Below, in pieces: positions 5,653 to 16,067 of a stretch of DNA of 53,983 bases. A program made the position numbers and the translations under genes. The notes under the pieces were generated by a model that saw nothing but the letters and a program-made list of their open reading frames with translations, searched no databases and was not told where the DNA came from. Each line of letters opens with the position of its first letter. Within the stretch, counting starts at the first letter, position 1. The DNA comes from a virus, in IMG/VR virus record IMGVR_UViG_3300027985_001102, positions 1 to 53,983 of that record; one strand, written 5' to 3'.

Positions 5653-8310
5653 CTACAGCTTCCCGCTCCCTTCCCAGCCATCATCTGGCAAGCCCACGGG
5701 CACGGGGCCAATCTTTGCCCCTGACTTCTCCACCCATGCAGCCGAGCGCGAAATCACGCGGCATCTGCAGTTGAAACCGAACGGCGGATAGGCATGATCC
5801 CAGAACGGGTCATCGGCAGGAAGGATCGTTCCAATCGCATCGTAGTGCGCGGGTCGGATGCGGTCATCCCTTACACCGCGGATTTGCCAGTAGGGGCGCG
5901 CCTTCAGCACGTCAGGCTGGGTCATCTCCGTCTTACGGCCGTGACCGTAGGCGGTCATGATGTTCGTCCGGTAAATGGTCTCGACATGGGAGGAATTGAC
6001 AGGCAGCCACCCAGCAGACTCAATACGAGCGGCGATGAACTGCTTGAACTGTCCAAGATCAGGGCCTTCGTGCGTACCGGGAACCATGGCGCGCCTACCC
6101 GCCTCCAGTTGCCGGTCAAGTTCGCCCTTTGCCACCGTCAGCAATTCCTTCGATGTCAGTCGCGCGATCGTGAATGCACGCCGCTTCGCCGCAGCGGTCA
6201 GCCGCTTGAACAGGTTCGGTTCGAGGATGTTCTTCGCCTGGAAGAACTTCAGAGCCGCCGCATAGGGTTGTTCGACGAACTTTGGCGAAGCTACGAGCGC
6301 CATCTTGATCCGTGAGAACGTTTCCAGCTGCACTTGCTCGTCGTTCTCGCGCTCCCACGCCGAATCGAGAGCGCCGAGCATGGCCCCGCGCATGATCTGT
6401 TCCTCAAGCAGCTGAGCAAACGCTTCGGTGTTGATCGACTTGCCAGCAGCGTTCAGCGCTTGGCGGATTGCTGGTGCAGTAGTCAGACCGTCGACGGACT
6501 TGCATAGCAATTCCGCCCACTTAGCCGTGATGACAGCACCCGCAGTCGTACCCTTCTCGGCAAGGGTATCAAGCGAACCAAACACCGAATCAGGAGGTCG
6601 AGCACAACACACATGGTCAAAAGGGCGAGCGGCCGCCCCCCTGACCGGCACAGACAGATTCTTCGGGATGGCTCGCCATGCGATCTTCCAAACTGGAGCG
6701 CCATTGACCATTTCGACGTCACGAACACGCTCGATTCCGCACAGCCGACAGCGATTCACCGCCCCGTGTTCGCATCGAGGAATCGCCAACTCAGTCATCT
6801 TCGTCGCTAGGGTAGACGCGGATTCATCCGTGGGAGGTTCACCGGGAATGCCGTCCCCATCGGGGTCATCGGCGGCCATGGTGGCGACAGCGGCTGGGTC
6901 AGTGGCGGCTAGAGCTGGGCGTGGGACAGGTGGGACATCCGGAGCTAGTCCACCGTCATCGCCCATCACCCCGATCTTTGCCCCGCTGGTTTTCGTTGGA
7001 TTGCCCATTGCGTCGATTCCAGTCGATTCGACAAGCTGGACCACCTCATCCCCCGGTTCTGGCTGCTCGGTTCCGCTTCGTTCGTAGATTTCGGTCAGCT
7101 TCACGGGCACGCCAAGCTTCAGTGTCTTGTCCAGCCTATCGATTTCCTCTGTCCTATTCGGGGGCGCCTCCGTTACGAACCTGATCCTGGGGGAGTACTT
7201 GAGCGCACCTTCACCGAGATTCATGAACACGATCTCACGAGCGATAGACGTGAAAACGGCAGACAGATTCCTACCGTCTGCGTTCACGACTCCGAGCTGC
7301 TCACCACTCGCGACTTCATCGGCAGAGGAGCCAAGGGCGCCCGGCTTAGCATCGGATGTGCGCTTGTTTCCCAGCACAAGCAGCGAGTTTTGGTCGTCTG
7401 CTTCTTGAGCGATGTCCTTGTGGAGTTGCCCCGAATCTGGGTGCGGTTGGTCCGTTTGCAGCGCGATCCCAGGGGGAAGGACACCAGTGGAATTCGACGC
7501 CATCTGGTCGATTGTTTGCTGTGCTTTGTCCAGTTGGTCTGGTTGGACCAAACCAAGGGAAGGGTCTGGCACCCACACAATCCTCCACGGGCGACCAAAC
7601 ACCTCGAGCAACACCATCCGTTCACGCCAACTGAGTCTCTTGAAGAGTGAGAAGTACAAACACCTCGGCGCCAACCCCTCGCGTTCCGGGTAGTCATTGA
7701 AAAGGCGTGGTTGAAAACAACTCCACTTGAACGGTATCGATCGAAGATCGAACCCCCGCTTCTCAAATGCCCCACCAGACCAATTCTCGTCGTTCAGCCT
7801 CAGCTCGCGCTCAGGGCCTAACGTCAGTCTTCTTGGGTGAATCCATGACAGCTCTGAGATCGTCCACGGGATCGGGTCGGAAGGGTCATAGGCCCACTGC
7901 TTCTCAGTCGCAGCTCGTCCGTCGAAATGCCCCCAGTCAAGTGATTGCACCGCTTCAGCCAGGTTTGAGATTCGAGCGAACGCCTGCCGGACCATGTCGG
8001 CTACCTCGGACGCTGGCTCTGGTTCGACCCCTGGGCCACTTACCGCGACAACATCACAATCGAGCGCGGCAATCGCGCGGAAACGCTTGCCGAGAATCGA
8101 ACCCAGATGCGGATCGATGGCGACCGTCTCGTAGGCGAGATCGGTTAGGTCCCGCATGTAGCCCATTTGTGCCGCACGTATGACGCCTTCCACCCGTTCC
8201 GGGCTCACGCCATTGCCGTAATACATGCGCCACTGCTCGGCCTCGGGGACCGTGCTTGAGCCGAACAGACGGGATTGAAGCGCGCGAACGTCTACTTGGA
8301 TGGCTGACAC
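5653..8310 (-). CDS. Portal fused to MuF-type head morphogenesis protein
   Basis: 885 residues. Residues about 1-470 match the DUF935/Mu gp29 portal (MRDLTDLAYETVAIDPHLGS, IPFKWSCFQPRLF, RMVLLEVFGRPWRIVWVPD). The remainder carries the MuF/SPP1 gp7 minor-head signature, with ETIYRTNIMTAYGHGRKT and, near the C-terminus, DRIRPAHYDAIG, then DPFWDHAYPPFGFNCRCRV. In Mu these are two genes (29 and 30); here they form one chain with a Pro/Ala/Asp-rich linker around residue 470-490. The portal forms the DNA gate; MuF is a few-copy internal head protein. The start is GTG at 8310, directly after the stop of an overlapping small frame. Confidence 0.88.
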   Translation of the reverse strand: MSAIQVDVRALQSRLFGSSTVPEAEQWRMYYGNGVSPERVEGVIRAAQMGYMRDLTDLAYETVAIDPHLGSILGKRFRAIAALDCDVVAVSGPGVEPEPASEVADMVRQAFARISNLAEAVQSLDWGHFDGRAATEKQWAYDPSDPIPWTISELSWIHPRRLTLGPERELRLNDENWSGGAFEKRGFDLRSIPFKWSCFQPRLFNDYPEREGLAPRCLYFSLFKRLSWRERMVLLEVFGRPWRIVWVPDPSLGLVQPDQLDKAQQTIDQMASNSTGVLPPGIALQTDQPHPDSGQLHKDIAQEADDQNSLLVLGNKRTSDAKPGALGSSADEVASGEQLGVVNADGRNLSAVFTSIAREIVFMNLGEGALKYSPRIRFVTEAPPNRTEEIDRLDKTLKLGVPVKLTEIYERSGTEQPEPGDEVVQLVESTGIDAMGNPTKTSGAKIGVMGDDGGLAPDVPPVPRPALAATDPAAVATMAADDPDGDGIPGEPPTDESASTLATKMTELAIPRCEHGAVNRCRLCGIERVRDVEMVNGAPVWKIAWRAIPKNLSVPVRGAAARPFDHVCCARPPDSVFGSLDTLAEKGTTAGAVITAKWAELLCKSVDGLTTAPAIRQALNAAGKSINTEAFAQLLEEQIMRGAMLGALDSAWERENDEQVQLETFSRIKMALVASPKFVEQPYAAALKFFQAKNILEPNLFKRLTAAAKRRAFTIARLTSKELLTVAKGELDRQLEAGRRAMVPGTHEGPDLGQFKQFIAARIESAGWLPVNSSHVETIYRTNIMTAYGHGRKTEMTQPDVLKARPYWQIRGVRDDRIRPAHYDAIGTILPADDPFWDHAYPPFGFNCRCRVISRSAAWVEKSGAKIGPVPVGLPDDGWEGSGKL

Positions 8311-8432: not shown

Positions 8433-8600
8433 TCACTTCTCTTTCGGTTTGATCCACCCACGAGCTTCGAATTCGCGTCGGGCTTCGTTCAGTCGAATCC
8501 TCAAACCGTCTTGTGTCAACTCAGTGGACAGCCGTTTGCGGATTTCTACACGAAGTTCGGACTTCAACTTTTCTAACGCCTCAGCCACCTTTTCAGCCAT
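8433..8600 (-). CDS. Small charged helical protein downstream of terL
   Basis: 55 residues, MAEKVAEALEKLKSELRVEI at the N-terminus, mostly charged heptad-like helix, ending in GWIKPKEK. The ATG at 8600 overlaps the terL stop (TGATG), so it is translationally coupled to the terminase. It lies where other phages encode small portal- or terminase-associated proteins; function unknown. Confidence 0.55.
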   Translation of the reverse strand: MAEKVAEALEKLKSELRVEIRKRLSTELTQDGLRIRLNEARREFEARGWIKPKEK

Positions 8601-10006
8601 CAAAAACCTCCAAGGCTTCGATTCTGTCTTGGGCCCGAAACCTTCACGTCGATCGTCTGCCCCCCGCCTGCCACAAGGGCATCAAAGGCGGCAGCCAGAG
8701 CGTCGACCTGGTCATCGTGCAGGTCCTTGACCCCTGTGAATCCAAGCACTTCCTTCAACAATTCTGCAACCCATGGCGCATCCCGTGGAACGAATATCTT
8801 GCCACGATTCCACGCTGCTGCAACTGGTTGTGCGCGGATGAGCTTGTCCACTGTTGCTGGAATCGCGCGTAACATCCTGGCCCCTTCGTTTCGAATGTGC
8901 TGAGCCACGCCCTTTTCGGGCCCGGCCATGTACCACCACATGGGCGATCCAGGCCATGCCACCGACATTCCATTGAGAATCTTGCTGAAAGCTGGGGAAT
9001 CTATCTGGACTCGGTGAACCAGCAGCACGTAGTACTGGGTGTCGACGATCCTTCCGGTGGTGTCCCGAATGTCGTAGGCAGCAAGAGCAAGCCCTACAGA
9101 ATAGTCAGATTTCTTGTTCTCGGAATATGCACAGTCCACACCGATCGCAACCCGGTACCCGCCTGGAGGCAGCTCGTCGTACAGATGAGCGTCACGGAAT
9201 ACTTTCGAGCCCTTAGGGCGTGGATTGCCCTGAAACAACGATTCCCAATCGTAGTCAGACTTTGCCCGTTTCGCTTCCCACCACGCAGCGGGACGCATCG
9301 ACTCCCACAGGTAGGTGCCGTCGAGAGCCAGTGCCGGAAGGTTGATAAGCTTCATCGGGGCATCCCCATCGGGATCCGACTGGCGGCCGATCAAGTCGTC
9401 TTCATGCCAACGATGGTGGTTGATGAAAGTGGACGAACCAGGATGAAGTCGTCCTTGGATCGAGGTGAACCATGAGTGGACTGCTTCCCGTCGGACGGGG
9501 GATTCCGCCTCGGCCCTGGACTTGTGTGGATCATCAATGACGATCCACCCGTCGATTCCCTCACCAGTGAGCGGACCACCAATCCCCGCCGCGATCACGC
9601 TCCCACCTTCCACCGTCTTCCAGTACCCGGAGGATTGGCACAAGGGATCGATGTGGGCCCTAGCACGCTTGGCATACTCGAGAATCGTGCGCGACTTCCG
9701 TTCAGCAATCGTCGCTGAATAGGAGATGTACGCGTTCTTCTTCGTGGGGTTCCGCGCTATGAAACGAGCGAAAGCCGAGAACAACGCCTCGGACTTTCCG
9801 ACCTGTGGAGGAGCTGAGAAGCAGGCCTCAACGGGTTCGTGGAACGCTCGTTCCACCTCATCAAGAATGGGGGAGAGATGATGGGGTCGCTCGTAGCTGG
9901 GGTTGATGTGTTGGACAAAATTGACCAACGGCATGCCGTCGATTTCGGCAAGCCTTCGTCGCAGTTCGAGCTCAGCTTCAGCTCTTGTCGCCAGATCCAC
10001 GAGCAA
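8600..10006 (-). CDS. terL: Terminase large subunit
   Basis: 468 residues. The Walker A motif SAPPQVGKS is at about 64-72 and Walker B WIVIDDP at 154-160 (packaging ATPase). The C-terminal RNase H-like nuclease has GVDCAYS with Asp291 and DLHDDQVDALAA with Asp431/432/435. It cuts and pumps DNA through the portal. The start is TTG at 10006 or GTG at 10000, both inside the terS 3' end, downstream of GAGG. Gene order terS-terL-portal is standard. Confidence 0.95.
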   Translation of the reverse strand: MLVDLATRAEAELELRRRLAEIDGMPLVNFVQHINPSYERPHHLSPILDEVERAFHEPVEACFSAPPQVGKSEALFSAFARFIARNPTKKNAYISYSATIAERKSRTILEYAKRARAHIDPLCQSSGYWKTVEGGSVIAAGIGGPLTGEGIDGWIVIDDPHKSRAEAESPVRREAVHSWFTSIQGRLHPGSSTFINHHRWHEDDLIGRQSDPDGDAPMKLINLPALALDGTYLWESMRPAAWWEAKRAKSDYDWESLFQGNPRPKGSKVFRDAHLYDELPPGGYRVAIGVDCAYSENKKSDYSVGLALAAYDIRDTTGRIVDTQYYVLLVHRVQIDSPAFSKILNGMSVAWPGSPMWWYMAGPEKGVAQHIRNEGARMLRAIPATVDKLIRAQPVAAAWNRGKIFVPRDAPWVAELLKEVLGFTGVKDLHDDQVDALAAAFDALVAGGGQTIDVKVSGPRQNRSLGGF

Positions 10007-10391
10007 TTGCCTCGAGCTCTTCGATAGTCAACGCCGCGAAGTCTATCTTTACTGGTCCTCCGCCAGCGCCAGTGTGCTCTACCGACATTCTTGTCTTGCC
10101 TCCGTGTCGCTCTGGGAATCGGCGTTCAAGCAGCCACTTAGCATGTTCTGGGCCATAACGCTTATCCGATGTCGCTCGCATCACAATCATGGAGAGCTCC
10201 GCTTCAAATTGCGCCTGTGCCTTCTCTATAGATTCAGTAAACGCCTTCCGTTTTGGGTCACTGAGCCACATATAGTAAGATGATCTCGATATTCCCACCA
10301 GGGCACAAGCAGTGGAAGCTGGCACTCCACTGGCGATTAGGGCGCATATGTTTTCTTGCATCTTAGGTGAGAGACGAGTTTTCCTTGCCAC
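9978..10391 (-). CDS. terS: Terminase small subunit
   Basis: 137 residues. The N-terminal helix-turn-helix (IASGVPASTACALVGISRS, about 18-37) is followed by SYYMWLSDPKR, a long helix (ESIEKAQAQFEAELSMIVMRA) and a C-terminal tail that could contact TerL. It recognises packaging DNA. It heads the late minus-strand block and is divergent from the HTH gene at 10439, only 47 bp away, so the late promoter should lie in or overlap that gap; no clear -35/-10 pair is visible there. Confidence 0.85.
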   Translation of the reverse strand: MARKTRLSPKMQENICALIASGVPASTACALVGISRSSYYMWLSDPKRKAFTESIEKAQAQFEAELSMIVMRATSDKRYGPEHAKWLLERRFPERHGGKTRMSVEHTGAGGGPVKIDFAALTIEELEAIARGSGDKS

Positions 10392-10438: not shown

Positions 10439-10714
10439 ATGAAGCGACAACCACGCGAAGGCTCTCTAGCCGTGGCTTTGGGGGCATGCTTGCGTGCGCC
10501 CGATGAACGTCTGGTGCAAGCAGCCATGCTGGTGATTGCGGAGGCGCTGGAGGGATCTGATGGGGTAGCCACCCGTGCTGCCGCGCGCCTAGGCGTACCG
10601 GAGCGCACGTTCCGAAAATGGTTGGCGCAAAGCCCCTCCTTGCAAGCGATGCGCAGCAAGATCCAGCAAAAACGCGACGGTAAGAACATATCCCACCGTG
10701 TGGTACCTCAATAA
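10439..10714 (+). CDS. Fis-like helix-turn-helix regulator A
   Basis: 91 residues. The C-terminal half has a Fis-type HTH (TRAAARLGVPERTFRKWLAQ, about 44-63). Residues 8-30 (GSLAVALGACLRAPDERLV) are clearly related to the protein encoded at 28712 (SALGVALGACLRSGDRLLV), so the two are paralogues. It diverges from terS, so control of the late operon is a reasonable guess; no direct evidence. Confidence 0.65.
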   Translation: MKRQPREGSLAVALGACLRAPDERLVQAAMLVIAEALEGSDGVATRAAARLGVPERTFRKWLAQSPSLQAMRSKIQQKRDGKNISHRVVPQ

Positions 10715-10865: not shown

Positions 10866-11171
10866 ATGACCATAACCATCACCATTACGAATGAAATCCG
10901 CAACCTGGCTGAATCCCTCACTGGAGCAAGTCTCGCGCGTCGTGATGGGCTTGTCTGGCATCACTCTGCCACTGTCCGTTTGGGAACACGATGCCCACTG
11001 GTTGTCGATCTGAGATGCTGTGTGGGGGTCAAGAAATGGGCTACAAATGTTGGGAAGGCGCTCTCCAACAAGGGGATGCGTGTCCATGTTGGCAAGTGCG
11101 TTCGGACCTACAGGGACCATTCAACCATGCCAGATGGATGGTGTTGCCTCGTTTCGATTCTAGGGCTCTGA
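10866..11171 (+). CDS. Unknown protein upstream of the TudS-like gene
   Basis: 101 residues, starting MTITITITNEIRNLAESLTG, with five Cys in the C-terminal part (TRCPLVVDLRCC, VGKCVRTY, WCCLVSILGL). Not recognised. The start ATG lies inside an inverted repeat and has no good ribosome site. It ends 11 bases before the TudS-like gene, so the two are probably co-transcribed. Confidence 0.45.
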   Translation: MTITITITNEIRNLAESLTGASLARRDGLVWHHSATVRLGTRCPLVVDLRCCVGVKKWATNVGKALSNKGMRVHVGKCVRTYRDHSTMPDGWCCLVSILGL

Positions 11172-11182
11172 AAGGATGGGCA

Positions 11183-11587
11183 ATGAAAACCGTAAAAAAC
11201 GAAACCGAAGACCGGCCTGCTGTACTCGTGTCCACGTGCCTCATGGGTGTAGCATGCCGCTACCACGGTCGACCATGCGCCACGCATAGCCGAATCCGAG
11301 GCATGCTTGACGCTGGCCGCGTGCGACTTGTGCCGGTATGCCCGGAGGTGTCGGGTGGGTTGCCTGTGCCTCGTCCGCCTACCCGCCCCAAGGATGGTCG
11401 GCTCTGGTGCGGCGGGGAGGACGTCACCGAGGCGTTTGAGGCGGGGGCGCAGGAAGCGCTTCGTGTTGCGGTGGAGTGCGGAGCGAAGAAAGCCTACCTG
11501 GTACGAGGGTCCCCTTCTTGTGACCGTGATAAGGGTGTAGCAGCAAGGCTGCTACAGGCGCATGGCATCAAAGTCATCCGGATTTAG
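11183..11587 (+). CDS. DUF523 / TudS-like iron-sulfur desulfurase
   Basis: 134 residues. The family hallmarks are STCLMGVACRYHG (Cys19, Cys25), the VPVCPEVSGGLPVPRPP block (Cys53) and RGSPSCD (Cys113). DUF523 includes TudS, a [4Fe-4S] enzyme that removes sulfur from thiouracil; three Cys bind the cluster. The start ATG at 11183 has AAAGGA at good spacing; the longer upstream frame is not needed. The gene overlaps tail-to-tail by 14 nt with the ParB-PAPS-reductase gene, placing a desulfurase beside a predicted sulfur-chemistry enzyme. The substrate here is unknown; thiolated nucleotide or nucleic acid is an inference. Confidence 0.85.
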   Translation: MKTVKNETEDRPAVLVSTCLMGVACRYHGRPCATHSRIRGMLDAGRVRLVPVCPEVSGGLPVPRPPTRPKDGRLWCGGEDVTEAFEAGAQEALRVAVECGAKKAYLVRGSPSCDRDKGVAARLLQAHGIKVIRI

Positions 11588-12845
11588 CCAACTTCTTCTG
11601 ACCACCCCGCACCAGATCATCGAATGAACGTGGCCCACTTCCGCCGTCTGGTTGCATAGGCCCGAGACGTTTTTCCCACCGGCGGATGTCATCAGCCAGC
11701 CCTGGGTAGTTGTGTTGCAAAGCAGCAGCCTGCAAGCCACATTGGCCGGGGCAGCACCAGCACGCCGTTCGAATGAAGCCGCGCTTGTATCCATCCCATA
11801 GCGGTACTCCACTGGATTCAATGATCTGGTCTTCTGTCGCCTTCTTGGTCGCAAAGCATGGCGCAAAGTGCTGGTACTTGTCACTCTTGGACCCAAGCGA
11901 CTGCAAAGCGCTTCGCTCTGTTTTTCGACTACCCAAATTGGCTTCTTCTGCTCGTGAACCAGTAAGCACCACCGTCGTTCCTTCGGGATGCTGTCGTACA
12001 TATGTACCGAAGGTGCGGTGGATCATGTCGTTGGCGCATGGCCGATAGATGATACTGGGCCATCGCCCCTCTTGCGCCAACCATGCCCACCAATCCCGCT
12101 GTGGCTTGAGTACTACACATTCCGCATGAAGGAATACTGCCACGTCGTACACATGCGCTGAAATGCCAGGGAATTCCACACCTGGATCCACGAATGCCAA
12201 CTGAAAACGTTTACCAGTCGCGTGTTTCGATGCCCAAAGCGCGGCGGCAGTGGAGTCTTTTCCACCGGAAAACTGGACGATTACGTCGGTTGCATTCTCC
12301 CATGTAGGCTCCAACCAAGCTGGCATGTCGAAGAAACCATCTGCGTCTTTCCACTCGTGCACATGTTGTCGTGGGAATGTCTGCCTCTGTTTTCGTATCT
12401 GCTCGAGCAACTTCGCGGTGGCGCTTGCATCGTGTCCAGTCCCACGCAAGTCTCCCCTTTGTGCCTGTATCTCTGCTAGTAGCTCATGCAATCGCTCCGG
12501 ATCGGGCTTGGCTCTGGCTGCTGTGGCATTGTCGGCCACCATAATGCGAATGGCAGTGTCGTCGTCAACGTCTACGTAATCGACATCGATTTCTGTCAAT
12601 CCCTCAGCCTTCGCAGCCATGTAGCGGTGGTTTCCAACCAGCACATGCCCAGAGCTCTGCTGCACCACGATCGACCCGTAGAAGCCGTTCTCTACCACTG
12701 ATTCCCTTACCGAATCCACATCTCCTTTGTTGTAGTTTCGCGGGTGAAGACTTATCAAGTCCAAGCCTACTCTCGCATGGCTCACATTCACGACACTGGC
12801 CTTCGCGTGTTGTGTGTCCAGTTTGTTCGGTTTATGCCCTACCAT
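11574..12845 (-). CDS. ParB-like nuclease domain fused to PAPS-reductase/PP-loop domain
   Basis: 423 residues. Residues 25-110 are a ParB/sulfiredoxin-like domain (LISLHPRNYNKGD, VLVGNHRYMAAKAEG). Residues 185-375 are a PAPS-reductase-like PP-loop domain: FSGGKDSTAA (193-200), a FVDPGVEFPGI strand, SRAEEANLGSRKTERS and the Cys cluster CWCCPGQC (362-369). IbrB/IbrA and some phosphorothioation-linked enzymes pair the same two domain types as separate proteins. The PP-loop domain should adenylate or handle sulfur; the ParB domain may bind or nick DNA. The start ATG at 12845 has GGAGG with 5-nt spacing. It is the last gene of the early minus operon. Confidence 0.88.
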   Translation of the reverse strand: MVGHKPNKLDTQHAKASVVNVSHARVGLDLISLHPRNYNKGDVDSVRESVVENGFYGSIVVQQSSGHVLVGNHRYMAAKAEGLTEIDVDYVDVDDDTAIRIMVADNATAARAKPDPERLHELLAEIQAQRGDLRGTGHDASATAKLLEQIRKQRQTFPRQHVHEWKDADGFFDMPAWLEPTWENATDVIVQFSGGKDSTAAALWASKHATGKRFQLAFVDPGVEFPGISAHVYDVAVFLHAECVVLKPQRDWWAWLAQEGRWPSIIYRPCANDMIHRTFGTYVRQHPEGTTVVLTGSRAEEANLGSRKTERSALQSLGSKSDKYQHFAPCFATKKATEDQIIESSGVPLWDGYKRGFIRTACWCCPGQCGLQAAALQHNYPGLADDIRRWEKRLGPMQPDGGSGPRSFDDLVRGGQKKLAKSG

Positions 12846-14108: not shown

Positions 14109-15479
14109 TTACGCTGCTTGTGTGCGCATCTTGCAGTACGCCATTGCCCAATCTGCTGGTGCCAGATAGCTATGAGGGATCGGCTTCCCCTGCATCCACT
14201 CAATGATCCCCCGCTTCGTTTTCTTGTCACGCAGATAGACCTTGATCTCATAATAGGCACCTACTGACTGCATGACCATTTTCCCCTTCAGGTCGAGCGC
14301 ACTTCTTGTCCAAGATTGGGCTAGACCATCCGCCCAAGTGATGAGTCGCGGGTCTGGTTCGTCCGTCAACTCTCGCGCACACTCAAACGCCAGTTGCCGA
14401 CGAATGGCAGTGATGTCGGCCTCGCGCTGGTCGCCCATGACCTTCGTTCCATCCTCCGAGAACATGGGGATTTGGTCTGGACTTGGCCTTGGTGGGCAAC
14501 GGAACTTCCTTGTCGCAACGGACTCGTACAGGTCCATTTTGGCCTTACGAATCGCCTCTTCCGTCGCCAGCTGCGTGGCCTCGTCCCGCTCCTTCGCTTC
14601 ACGTTCAATCCGCTCTTGCTCGGTGAGCAGATTGGTTGCTAGATTGTCTACGTTGGCGAGCTTCGCGCTCAGGGAAGCGATCTTTGCGTCGGTGTGCTTC
14701 GCCAGGATCATCACCAGCGAGTCGTCATCTTCGACGATGGGCTTGGTCGGCCCGTGCCGGTAAGCGAGATACACCGCGATGACCTCGTCCATGATGTCGT
14801 CGGCCTTGTCAGTCTCGCACCGGCGGATGACTCTCAGGGCGTTTCGTTCGTCCAGGTAGTAGGCGGTGACCTCACGCTCTTCGATGCCCTTCACAGCCCC
14901 ACGTTTTTCGATGCGATCCATATGGATCGCATGCAAAACCCCTGGGATTTTGCCACTTTCGTCGAGTCGCTTGATGAGCTTCCGGATGCTTCGTGGCTGG
15001 TCGAACCCGAGCCGTTCCGCCAACACGATATCCAAGATCCTCGGTTCTGGGTCGCCCTCGAACTGCTCCATGTGCCAGCCGTTCAGCACGATGGCTTTGG
15101 AGGTGGGGGCTGTAGCCTCCACTGGCTCAACCACTTCCGCTTCGACAGGCGCTTCGACAGTCTTCGATTGTGTCTTCATTGCCTCTTTACCTCCCAGCCA
15201 ACGAATCACCTTGCTGATGTCGACCACGTTGCCCTTGCTCTTCGCCACGACGTGGATGAGCGGCAGGTGCCACCCTGACACCATCGCAGCGATAGTGTTC
15301 TCGTTGCCATTGATGCCTACGGTGTTTAGGATTGCCACCTCGGCACCCTCGTGGATAGCCTGGTGGAGCTCGCAGTACCGCACCCACGAGACCACCTTGA
15401 TGCCCTCAGCGCCAAGCCTGTTGGCGAGTAGGCGCTTGGCCGATCCGATGTCATTGGCGATTACGATTGCTCTACACAT
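14109..15479 (-). CDS. Rossmann-like module joined in frame to an antirepressor-like protein
   Basis: 456 residues from ATG 15479. Residues 1-100 look like a small alpha/beta domain (IVIANDIGSAKRLLANRLG, VAILNTVGINGNENTIAAMV, HLPLIHVVA). After a Glu/Val/Pro linker, residues about 125-235 match the N-terminal domain of phage antirepressor/Rha-type proteins (ILDIVLAERLGFDQPRSIRKLI, YYLDERNALRVIRRCETDKA, VYLAYRHG). A long charged coiled coil and a C-terminal domain follow. An internal ATG at 15179 with GGGAGG and GAGG upstream could start the antirepressor alone. One extra G in CTGGGAGG would end the first module at a TAA at 15187, so a lost stop or sequence error is possible. Antirepressors trigger lytic growth by binding repressors. 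Confidence 0.65.
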   Translation of the reverse strand: MCRAIVIANDIGSAKRLLANRLGAEGIKVVSWVRYCELHQAIHEGAEVAILNTVGINGNENTIAAMVSGWHLPLIHVVAKSKGNVVDISKVIRWLGGKEAMKTQSKTVEAPVEAEVVEPVEATAPTSKAIVLNGWHMEQFEGDPEPRILDIVLAERLGFDQPRSIRKLIKRLDESGKIPGVLHAIHMDRIEKRGAVKGIEEREVTAYYLDERNALRVIRRCETDKADDIMDEVIAVYLAYRHGPTKPIVEDDDSLVMILAKHTDAKIASLSAKLANVDNLATNLLTEQERIEREAKERDEATQLATEEAIRKAKMDLYESVATRKFRCPPRPSPDQIPMFSEDGTKVMGDQREADITAIRRQLAFECARELTDEPDPRLITWADGLAQSWTRSALDLKGKMVMQSVGAYYEIKVYLRDKKTKRGIIEWMQGKPIPHSYLAPADWAMAYCKMRTQAA

Positions 15480-16067
15480 GTTGTTTCGCGCTCCTTGCGA
15501 TAGAGATAAGCAGATCCCTGAACTCTGTTGGTGTGGCCGCTGCCTGTTTCGGGGATAGCCTCTGACGCTCGTCGTCTGTTTGGGTTCGGTTTCGGCACAG
15601 GGATACGAGCGCATTTGTCCGAAGCCCAGATCCCCACCGCATCGATGGCAGGTCGACACCATTCGCGTACACGTTGCCTTGCGGGCTGGATGCCCGTACC
15701 GGCCTTGCTCGACGTGACATGTCCATCCTCCCAGATAGTCCGCGTTCACCCATCCGCCTGTGGCCGGAGGCACATTCAGACCGTACGTCCCCCACGCGTC
15801 GGAATATGCTGGGTGCTCCAAGACGCCGCCCCACCTACGCACGGAGTCCAACGCCGACGCAAAACACCCACCGTCTACTCCTCGCAGGTACCCATAGCGT
15901 GCCTCCACGAGCCCCGCCAGACGGCACCACCGCGTGCATGGGGGGTGCGCTACGACAGGATGGGGACCAGGATACAATCGCGCGTCCCTGGATTCGTCCC
16001 ATAGGTCCACCCCAGTTAGGCCGGAGTATGACCCTTTTGGATCGACGAAGAGAGCGGCTACAAGCAT
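15472..16067 (-). pseudogene. Conserved phage protein with PPC motif, frameshifted
   Basis: Residues 1 to about 133 follow a conserved phage family of unknown function (ALFVDPKGSYSGLTGVDLWD, VVAHPPCTRWCRLAG, GGVLEHPAYSDAWGTYGLN, GWTCHVEQGRYGHPARKAT). At 15669-15671 the expected continuation moves to another frame (YANGVDLPSMRWG through TPTEFRDLLISIARS), which ends correctly at 15472. One base, or four, is missing there. In this sequence the first frame runs on uninterrupted into the downstream gene, making a false 652-residue ORF. The gene is either truly broken, recoded, or carries a sequencing error. Restored length is about 198 residues. Confidence 0.75.

Follow-up and report, generated by a model that had tools for sequence, protein, structure and literature searches.

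A virus-borne ParB/PP-loop fusion protein paired with a short TudS-family protein: a predicted viral sulfur-modification system

Why should a virus carry a predicted desulfidase gene and a predicted sulfur-inserting gene that overlap tail to tail? The window analysed here, a 53,983-base virus record from IMG/VR, has the gene content of a tailed phage, with genes for a contractile-tail sheath and a baseplate as well as an integrase. A preliminary description had placed a DUF523/TudS gene and a ParB-PAPS-reductase fusion gene on opposite strands of this record, and both lie where it had put them (Table 1). Their overlap follows from the stop codons, tag at 11585-11587 on the + strand for TudS and tga at 11576-11574, read on the − strand, for the fusion. 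The TudS frame is open from an ATG at 10991, with homology beginning only near 11222. We considered whether either frame might be a chance antisense ORF and ruled this out, since both proteins are conserved across many other viruses.

Table 1. Coordinates of the paired genes, their domains and motifs, and the adjoining terminase genes in the window.
Feature	Position	Strand	Details
TudS-family (DUF523, PF04463) gene, short form	11183..11587	+	134 aa; PF04463 85.4 bits
ParB-like/PAPS-reductase-like PP-loop fusion gene	11574..12845	−	423 aa; PF01507, PHROG ParB, PHROG PAPSR
Tail-to-tail overlap of both coding regions	11574..11587		14 nt, from stop codon positions
ParB-like domain, residues 20-113, GNHR motif	12507..12788	−	structural match 7bnr; ParB/Noc sequence matches
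PP-loop ATP-pyrophosphatase (PAPS-reductase-like) domain, residues 160-415	11601..12368	−	structural matches
PP-loop motif SGGKDS, residues 193-198	12252..12269	−	S, G, G, D, S invariant in 29 homologues
Cys270, presumed first Fe-S ligand	12036..12038	−	invariant, 29/29 homologues
Cys362-x-x-Cys365 (CWCC), presumed Fe-S ligands	11751..11762	−	outer Cys invariant, 29/29
Terminase small subunit, context	9978..10391	−	PHROG 4102, E 4e-22
Terminase large subunit, context	8600..10006	−	PHROG 38, E 2e-62

The pair is located just upstream of the terminase genes, and scans for promoters and terminators gave signals no better than those of shuffled sequence. A small Fis-like helix-turn-helix gene (10439-10714, + strand; HTH_8, 24 bits) lies ~470 nt upstream of TudS on the same strand, opposed to the direction of the surrounding late genes, and could be a regulator of TudS. 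On the other side of the pair, a gene on the − strand (14109-16067) encodes a protein of 652 aa that matches PHROG 12600, a family of unknown function, over its initial 138 residues (E 1e-44); no match was obtained for the remainder.

The fusion assignment is borne out at several levels, with the GNHR, SGGKDS and CWCCPGQC motifs of the preliminary description all present. The protein matches PF01507 PAPS_reduct (32.4 bits; cut-off 22.5) and the PHROG families for ParB (105 bits) and PAPS reductase (97 bits), while its match to PF02195 ParB_N falls just under the cut-off (23.1 versus 26.3 bits). In an AF2 model (pLDDT 84), the N-terminal domain superimposes on ParB 7bnr (Z 13.6, rmsd 1.9 over 90 residues), and the PP-loop domain matches APS reductase 2goy (Z 14.7), the tRNA thiolase NcsA 6scy (Z 13.3) and TtuA (Z 12.6). 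A match to this ParB domain is also seen in phage DNA methyltransferases, and fusions of ParB with an N6_N4 methylase are present in two of the loci that carry the pair (L019 and L050). A further virus (L051) encodes the ParB, PP-loop and TudS parts separately, in three genes arranged in tandem. We also note that NC_074642.1 gp05 (L008:1242-2486), which consists of a methylase-type ParB part and a PP-loop domain, bears the GenBank name 'DNA modification methylase'; misnaming of such fusions as methylases may be common.

Whether the PP-loop domain is a true PAPS reductase bears directly on what the pair does. PAPS reductase (CysH) has a C-terminal catalytic motif, ECGxH; there is no ECG in the 423-aa fusion and none conserved in its alignment. 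Nor does the fusion have the four-cysteine [4Fe-4S] site of APS reductase (CC...CxxC), as its conserved cysteines are Cys270 followed by Cys362xxCys365; the intervening position 364 is cysteine in 17/29 homologues, and Cys364 is thus not conserved. Reports of viral 'sulfur metabolism' genes very often concern genes annotated as cysH or PAPS reductase, and viral cysH is widely read in this way (PMC9301287, PMC8879888); on that precedent the pair would have an ordinary role in auxiliary sulfur metabolism, combining a genuine PAPS reductase with a thiouracil scavenger. We regard this as highly improbable, the least likely of the readings considered here, given the missing ECGxH motif, the fused ParB, the loss from TudS of the loop that binds free nucleotides, the position beside terminase and a host range that includes methanogens. 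The link to both a DNA-methyltransferase-type ParB and a desulfidase subfamily instead makes it very likely that this class of fusions performs nucleic-acid chemistry rather than sulfate assimilation. We initially took the three-cysteine pattern as a mark special to the fusion and dropped this idea, as three cysteines also follow the PP-loop in 103/104 control phage PAPS-reductase-like proteins. In DndC, three cysteines hold the cluster (PMC10853773), and the pattern shared by DndC and the phage PAPS-reductase-like proteins would therefore denote Fe-S thiolation chemistry generally, not this pair alone.

The assignment of the partner to TudS also stands, its PF04463 (2-thiouracil desulfurase) score lying well above the gathering cut-off of 34.7 bits. 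Its cluster cysteines, Cys19, Cys53 and Cys113, align with Cys17/49/114 of RudS and Cys10/43/104 of TudS_A, and we further identify catalytic residues (Glu55, Arg64, Ser110 and Ser112) and base- or phosphate-binding residues (Arg26, Tyr27 and Pro111). The cluster cysteines and catalytic residues of the paired proteins correspond to the set that mutagenesis has shown RudS to require, namely Cys17, Cys49, Cys114, Glu51, Arg60, Ser111 and Ser113 (PMC11417400). Cys19, Cys53, Glu55, Arg64 and Ser110 are found in 32/32 homologues and Cys113 in 31/32, the base-stacking Tyr/Trp27 and Pro111 are conserved, and most paired proteins read CR[YW]HG; Ser112 is substituted in 8/32. The one paired protein without the third cysteine (L015:4722-5126) has glycine in its place (SPSGD) beside an intact fusion. 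An AF2 model of the window protein (pLDDT 94.5) matches TudS 6z96 with a TM score of 0.80 (E 6e-12, 34% identity). From these residues and this fold, the partner is a predicted desulfidase with a putative [4Fe-4S] cluster.

The paired TudS proteins nevertheless appear to form a clade of their own, on one side of a branch with 99/97 support that was tested against a small outgroup of five canonical TudS proteins from phage records. As a single query, the window TudS sequence recovered no relatives in IMG/VR, and a profile was needed to find them. They differ in a 14-residue segment, the IYDGTFxG loop, which is present in the 5 canonical proteins and absent from the window protein and all paired homologues. 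This segment includes Tyr110 of TudS_A, which docking places against the sugar (PMC10611767).

These features bear on two further alternatives. The known substrates of TudS and RudS are 4-thio-UMP and tRNA s4U (PMC10611767, PMC11417400), and tRNA is also the target of NcsA and TtuA, the closest PP-loop thiolases; the pair might on these grounds act on host tRNA or thio-nucleotides to steer translation or to defeat a tRNA-based defence, for example by removing 4-thiouridine and rebuilding another mark. This seems rather unlikely, as neither TudS nor the fusion matched a tRNA-binding domain such as THUMP or DUF1722, the loop that bears the sugar-stacking Tyr in mononucleotide TudS has been lost, the targeting domain that is retained is ParB, and the pair adjoins terminase genes. 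We consider it very unlikely that the pair serves counter-defence, with TudS stripping sulfur from host phosphorothioate or other thio-marked DNA systems and the fusion mimicking the host mark. Such a role would fit the match of the PP-loop domain to the PADLOC SspD profile (48 bits) and the phosphorothioate-forming PP-loop enzymes of Dnd, Ssp and type-4 BREX. Speaking against it are the thiocarbonyl-base chemistry of TudS, with the base-stacking Tyr/Trp27 and Pro111 conserved here, and a host range from methanogens to Akkermansia.

How firmly the two genes are linked was examined in IMG/VR with the fusion as the sole query, so that the co-occurrence test was unbiased by TudS. With the single sequence as query, five relatives that include the PP-loop part were recovered, each on a contig with PF04463 (5/5), and one ParB-only match on a contig without it. 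A profile search gave 28 loci, 27 with the PP-loop part, and in every one of these (27/27) a TudS-type ORF lies within 1.6 kb of the fusion, usually touching it. In Methanoculleus virus Blf4/L4768, the only GenBank phage record type that covers the whole fusion, TudS (gp06) directly follows the fusion (gp05) at a distance of 45 nt, and TudS also adjoins the fusion on all five fusion-bearing contigs in GTDB genomes (Methanosarcinales, Akkermansia and Planctomycetota), one of these five pairs being cut by a contig end. By comparison, no TudS was found near other phage PAPS-reductase-like genes (0/32 and 0/80 loci, 0/112 in total), and no GenBank phage with an unfused PAPS-reductase-like gene is among the TudS-bearing records. 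TudS is present in 1/18 ParB-methyltransferase control loci, and that one is a pair-bearing contig used as query. When the first searches are reduced to clusters at 80% identity, TudS accompanies 18/18 fusions versus 0/61 controls (Fisher p = 4e-18). The enrichment within about 3 kb that the preliminary description had proposed as a check is thus very clear (27/27 versus 0/112), with two exceptions in a wider search, and the pairing is not a matter of chance. Mere relatedness of the phages was rejected as its cause, as the surrounding terminase and portal families differ and gene orientation changes.

The wider search took in a second clade and recovered 15 fusion loci, of which 13 have TudS on the same contig. 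The remaining two are L317, a divergent form, and L310, where a main-type fusion (5977-7218) lies directly upstream of the large terminase gene on a 61.8-kb contig that has no TudS. We had first thought the pairing absolute and dropped this idea when these two loci appeared, since they show that TudS is not strictly required. Viewed from TudS, the fusion was shown in 36/41 loci. L042 is not an orphan TudS, as it had seemed, its fusion being near the other end of the same contig, and two contigs (L075 and L081) end at the TudS gene. Two TudS genes on contigs that have no fusion (L060:5962-6417 and L061:5962-6417) encode proteins that have lost the third cluster cysteine (SPSN) and have an unalignable C-terminus, as if decaying after loss of the partner.

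The preliminary description drew attention to the tail-to-tail arrangement, which is the commonest layout and is not fixed. Among ~30 distinct pairs (30 clusters), 21 are convergent, 8 are tandem with the fusion first and 1 is divergent, such that TudS lies directly 3′ of the fusion in 29/30; L303 is a further divergent case outside these clusters. The pairs usually adjoin terminase genes, although the terminase and portal families vary among the viruses, and a common order is fusion> <TudS, terminase small>, terminase large>, which the window matches when read on the − strand. In two otherwise different viruses, homologous clamp-loader-like AAA+ proteins are encoded 4-10 nt upstream of TudS and on its strand (L005:1927-2580, −; L054:5119-5946, +). 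A second terminase-linked class of PAPS-reductase-like genes is represented by an unfused gut-phage gene located exactly between the terminase large subunit and portal genes (L158:2980-3756) and its relatives (L178-L209), which have the same three-cysteine pattern and no TudS.

Within the pair, the PP-loop and TudS distances correlate modestly (Mantel r 0.25, p 0.001), whereas the ParB and PP-loop distances of the fusion do not (Mantel r 0.01, p 0.43). The ParB part therefore looks exchangeable and appears to have been swapped among fusions, as expected of a targeting module. ParB-superfamily proteins such as DpdB and DndB are recurrent partners of DNA modification (PMC12839542, PMC10853773).

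The reading that we favor, to which we assign a probability of roughly 45%, is that the fusion writes sulfur at the expense of ATP and is directed to DNA by its ParB domain, and that the short TudS serves as a dedicated desulfidase for the product of this writer. In the mechanism that we infer, the ParB-like domain would bring the enzyme to DNA, and the PP-loop domain would spend ATP to adenylate an oxygen on the target, presumably a base oxygen. A putative Fe-S cluster on Cys270, Cys362 and Cys365 would then supply the sulfur, as in the PP-loop thiolases NcsA, TtuA and DndC. TudS would hydrolyze the product, most likely a thiocarbonyl base, and by removing sulfur from wrongly or untimely modified nucleic acid would make the mark reversible or proofread. 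The likely benefit would be the shielding of viral DNA from host nucleases around packaging. A thio-base is a more likely product than phosphorothioate, judging from the residues for thiocarbonyl chemistry conserved in TudS, and DNA a more likely target than tRNA, judging from the DNA-methyltransferase type of the ParB domain and its retention, in L051 as a separate gene. The substitution of Ser112 in 8/32 TudS proteins and the missing Cys113 in L015 count against a writer and eraser, and regulatory or nuclease functions also occur among ParB-like domains. More tentative is the narrower proposal that the viruses mark DNA bases reversibly with sulfur, through a ParB-guided thio-base writer and a dedicated DNA desulfidase that removes the mark.

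The near-universal pairing and the co-variation of the PP-loop and TudS trees could also signify a two-protein thiolase, in which the short TudS donates sulfur to a target activated by the PP-loop protein. Its cluster would bind sulfide as [4Fe-5S], an intermediate known for TudS (PMC10611767), and would take the place that a cysteine desulfurase has in Dnd, Ssp and type-4 BREX. Cysteine desulfurase PF00266 is absent from the 19 virus records considered (the window and 18 others, many of them fragments), although sulfide or a cysteine desulfurase could come from the host. The 8/30 tandem pairs would be co-expressed and therefore fit a two-protein enzyme equally well. We consider this arrangement possible but doubtful. 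The mostly opposite strands of the two genes, the full conservation of the water-activating Glu55, Arg64 and Ser110 expected of a hydrolytic desulfidase, and an asymmetry drawn from two or three viruses, in which the fusion survives alone and TudS alone decays, weakly favor an eraser over a donor.

Each family is known by itself; what is new, as far as we have checked, is the coupling of the two, together with the short TudS subfamily and how widely it is distributed. In agreement with the preliminary description, no account of the pair was found in the literature searched, most subscription papers and preprints lying outside it. The Blf4 paper has no mention of ParB, PAPS or methylase, and the Blf4 GenBank record names the fusion 'DNA modification methylase' and the TudS gene hypothetical. 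The pair recurs in many bacterial and archaeal viruses that are unrelated to one another, and so points to a viral sulfur-modification system, of predicted chemistry, that has yet to be described; Blf4, an archaeal virus that can be cultivated, offers it in compact form as two genes. If sulfur is indeed added to and removed from viral DNA bases, this would be a new DNA modification, with the first dedicated DNA desulfidase and the first known thio-base writer/eraser pair, common to unrelated viruses of bacteria and archaea.

When compared to known systems, the viral TudS resembles the TudS/RudS [4Fe-4S] desulfidases (PDB 6Z92-6Z96) in its fold, three cluster cysteines, catalytic Glu/Ser/Arg and base-pocket Arg with an aromatic residue, and differs in being a separate clade that lacks the 14-residue loop with Tyr110, has no DUF1722 and is genetically tied to a PP-loop/ParB protein. 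With Dnd, Ssp and type-4 BREX (DndC, SspD and BrxP), the fusion shares a PAPS-reductase-like PP-loop enzyme with three conserved cysteines, and Dnd also has a ParB-superfamily partner (DndB). In the viral pair, however, ParB is fused to the PP-loop protein, the system is virus-borne, and TudS is found where those systems have a cysteine desulfurase, which the host can supply in known cases; no partner of the DndD, DndE, SspB or BrxC type was seen next to the pair. IbrA/IbrB likewise combine a PAPS-reductase-like with a ParB-like protein, but as two separate genes rather than fused and paired with TudS. Several phage loci (L325, L329-L331 and L333-L335) resemble IbrA/IbrB, with a PAPS-reductase-like gene of ~400 aa flanked by ParB-like genes, and no TudS occurs in these IbrAB-like loci (L325-L335). 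The tRNA thiolases NcsA and TtuA share the PP-loop fold and a presumed three-cysteine [4Fe-4S] cluster; they have RNA-binding domains where the fusion has ParB, and their cysteines are ordered CxxC...C, as in NcsA, versus C...CxxC. Finally, the phage ParB-DNA methyltransferase fusions have the same type of N-terminal ParB-like domain and the same genome neighborhood, with an N6/N4 methylase as the catalytic domain in place of the PP-loop enzyme.
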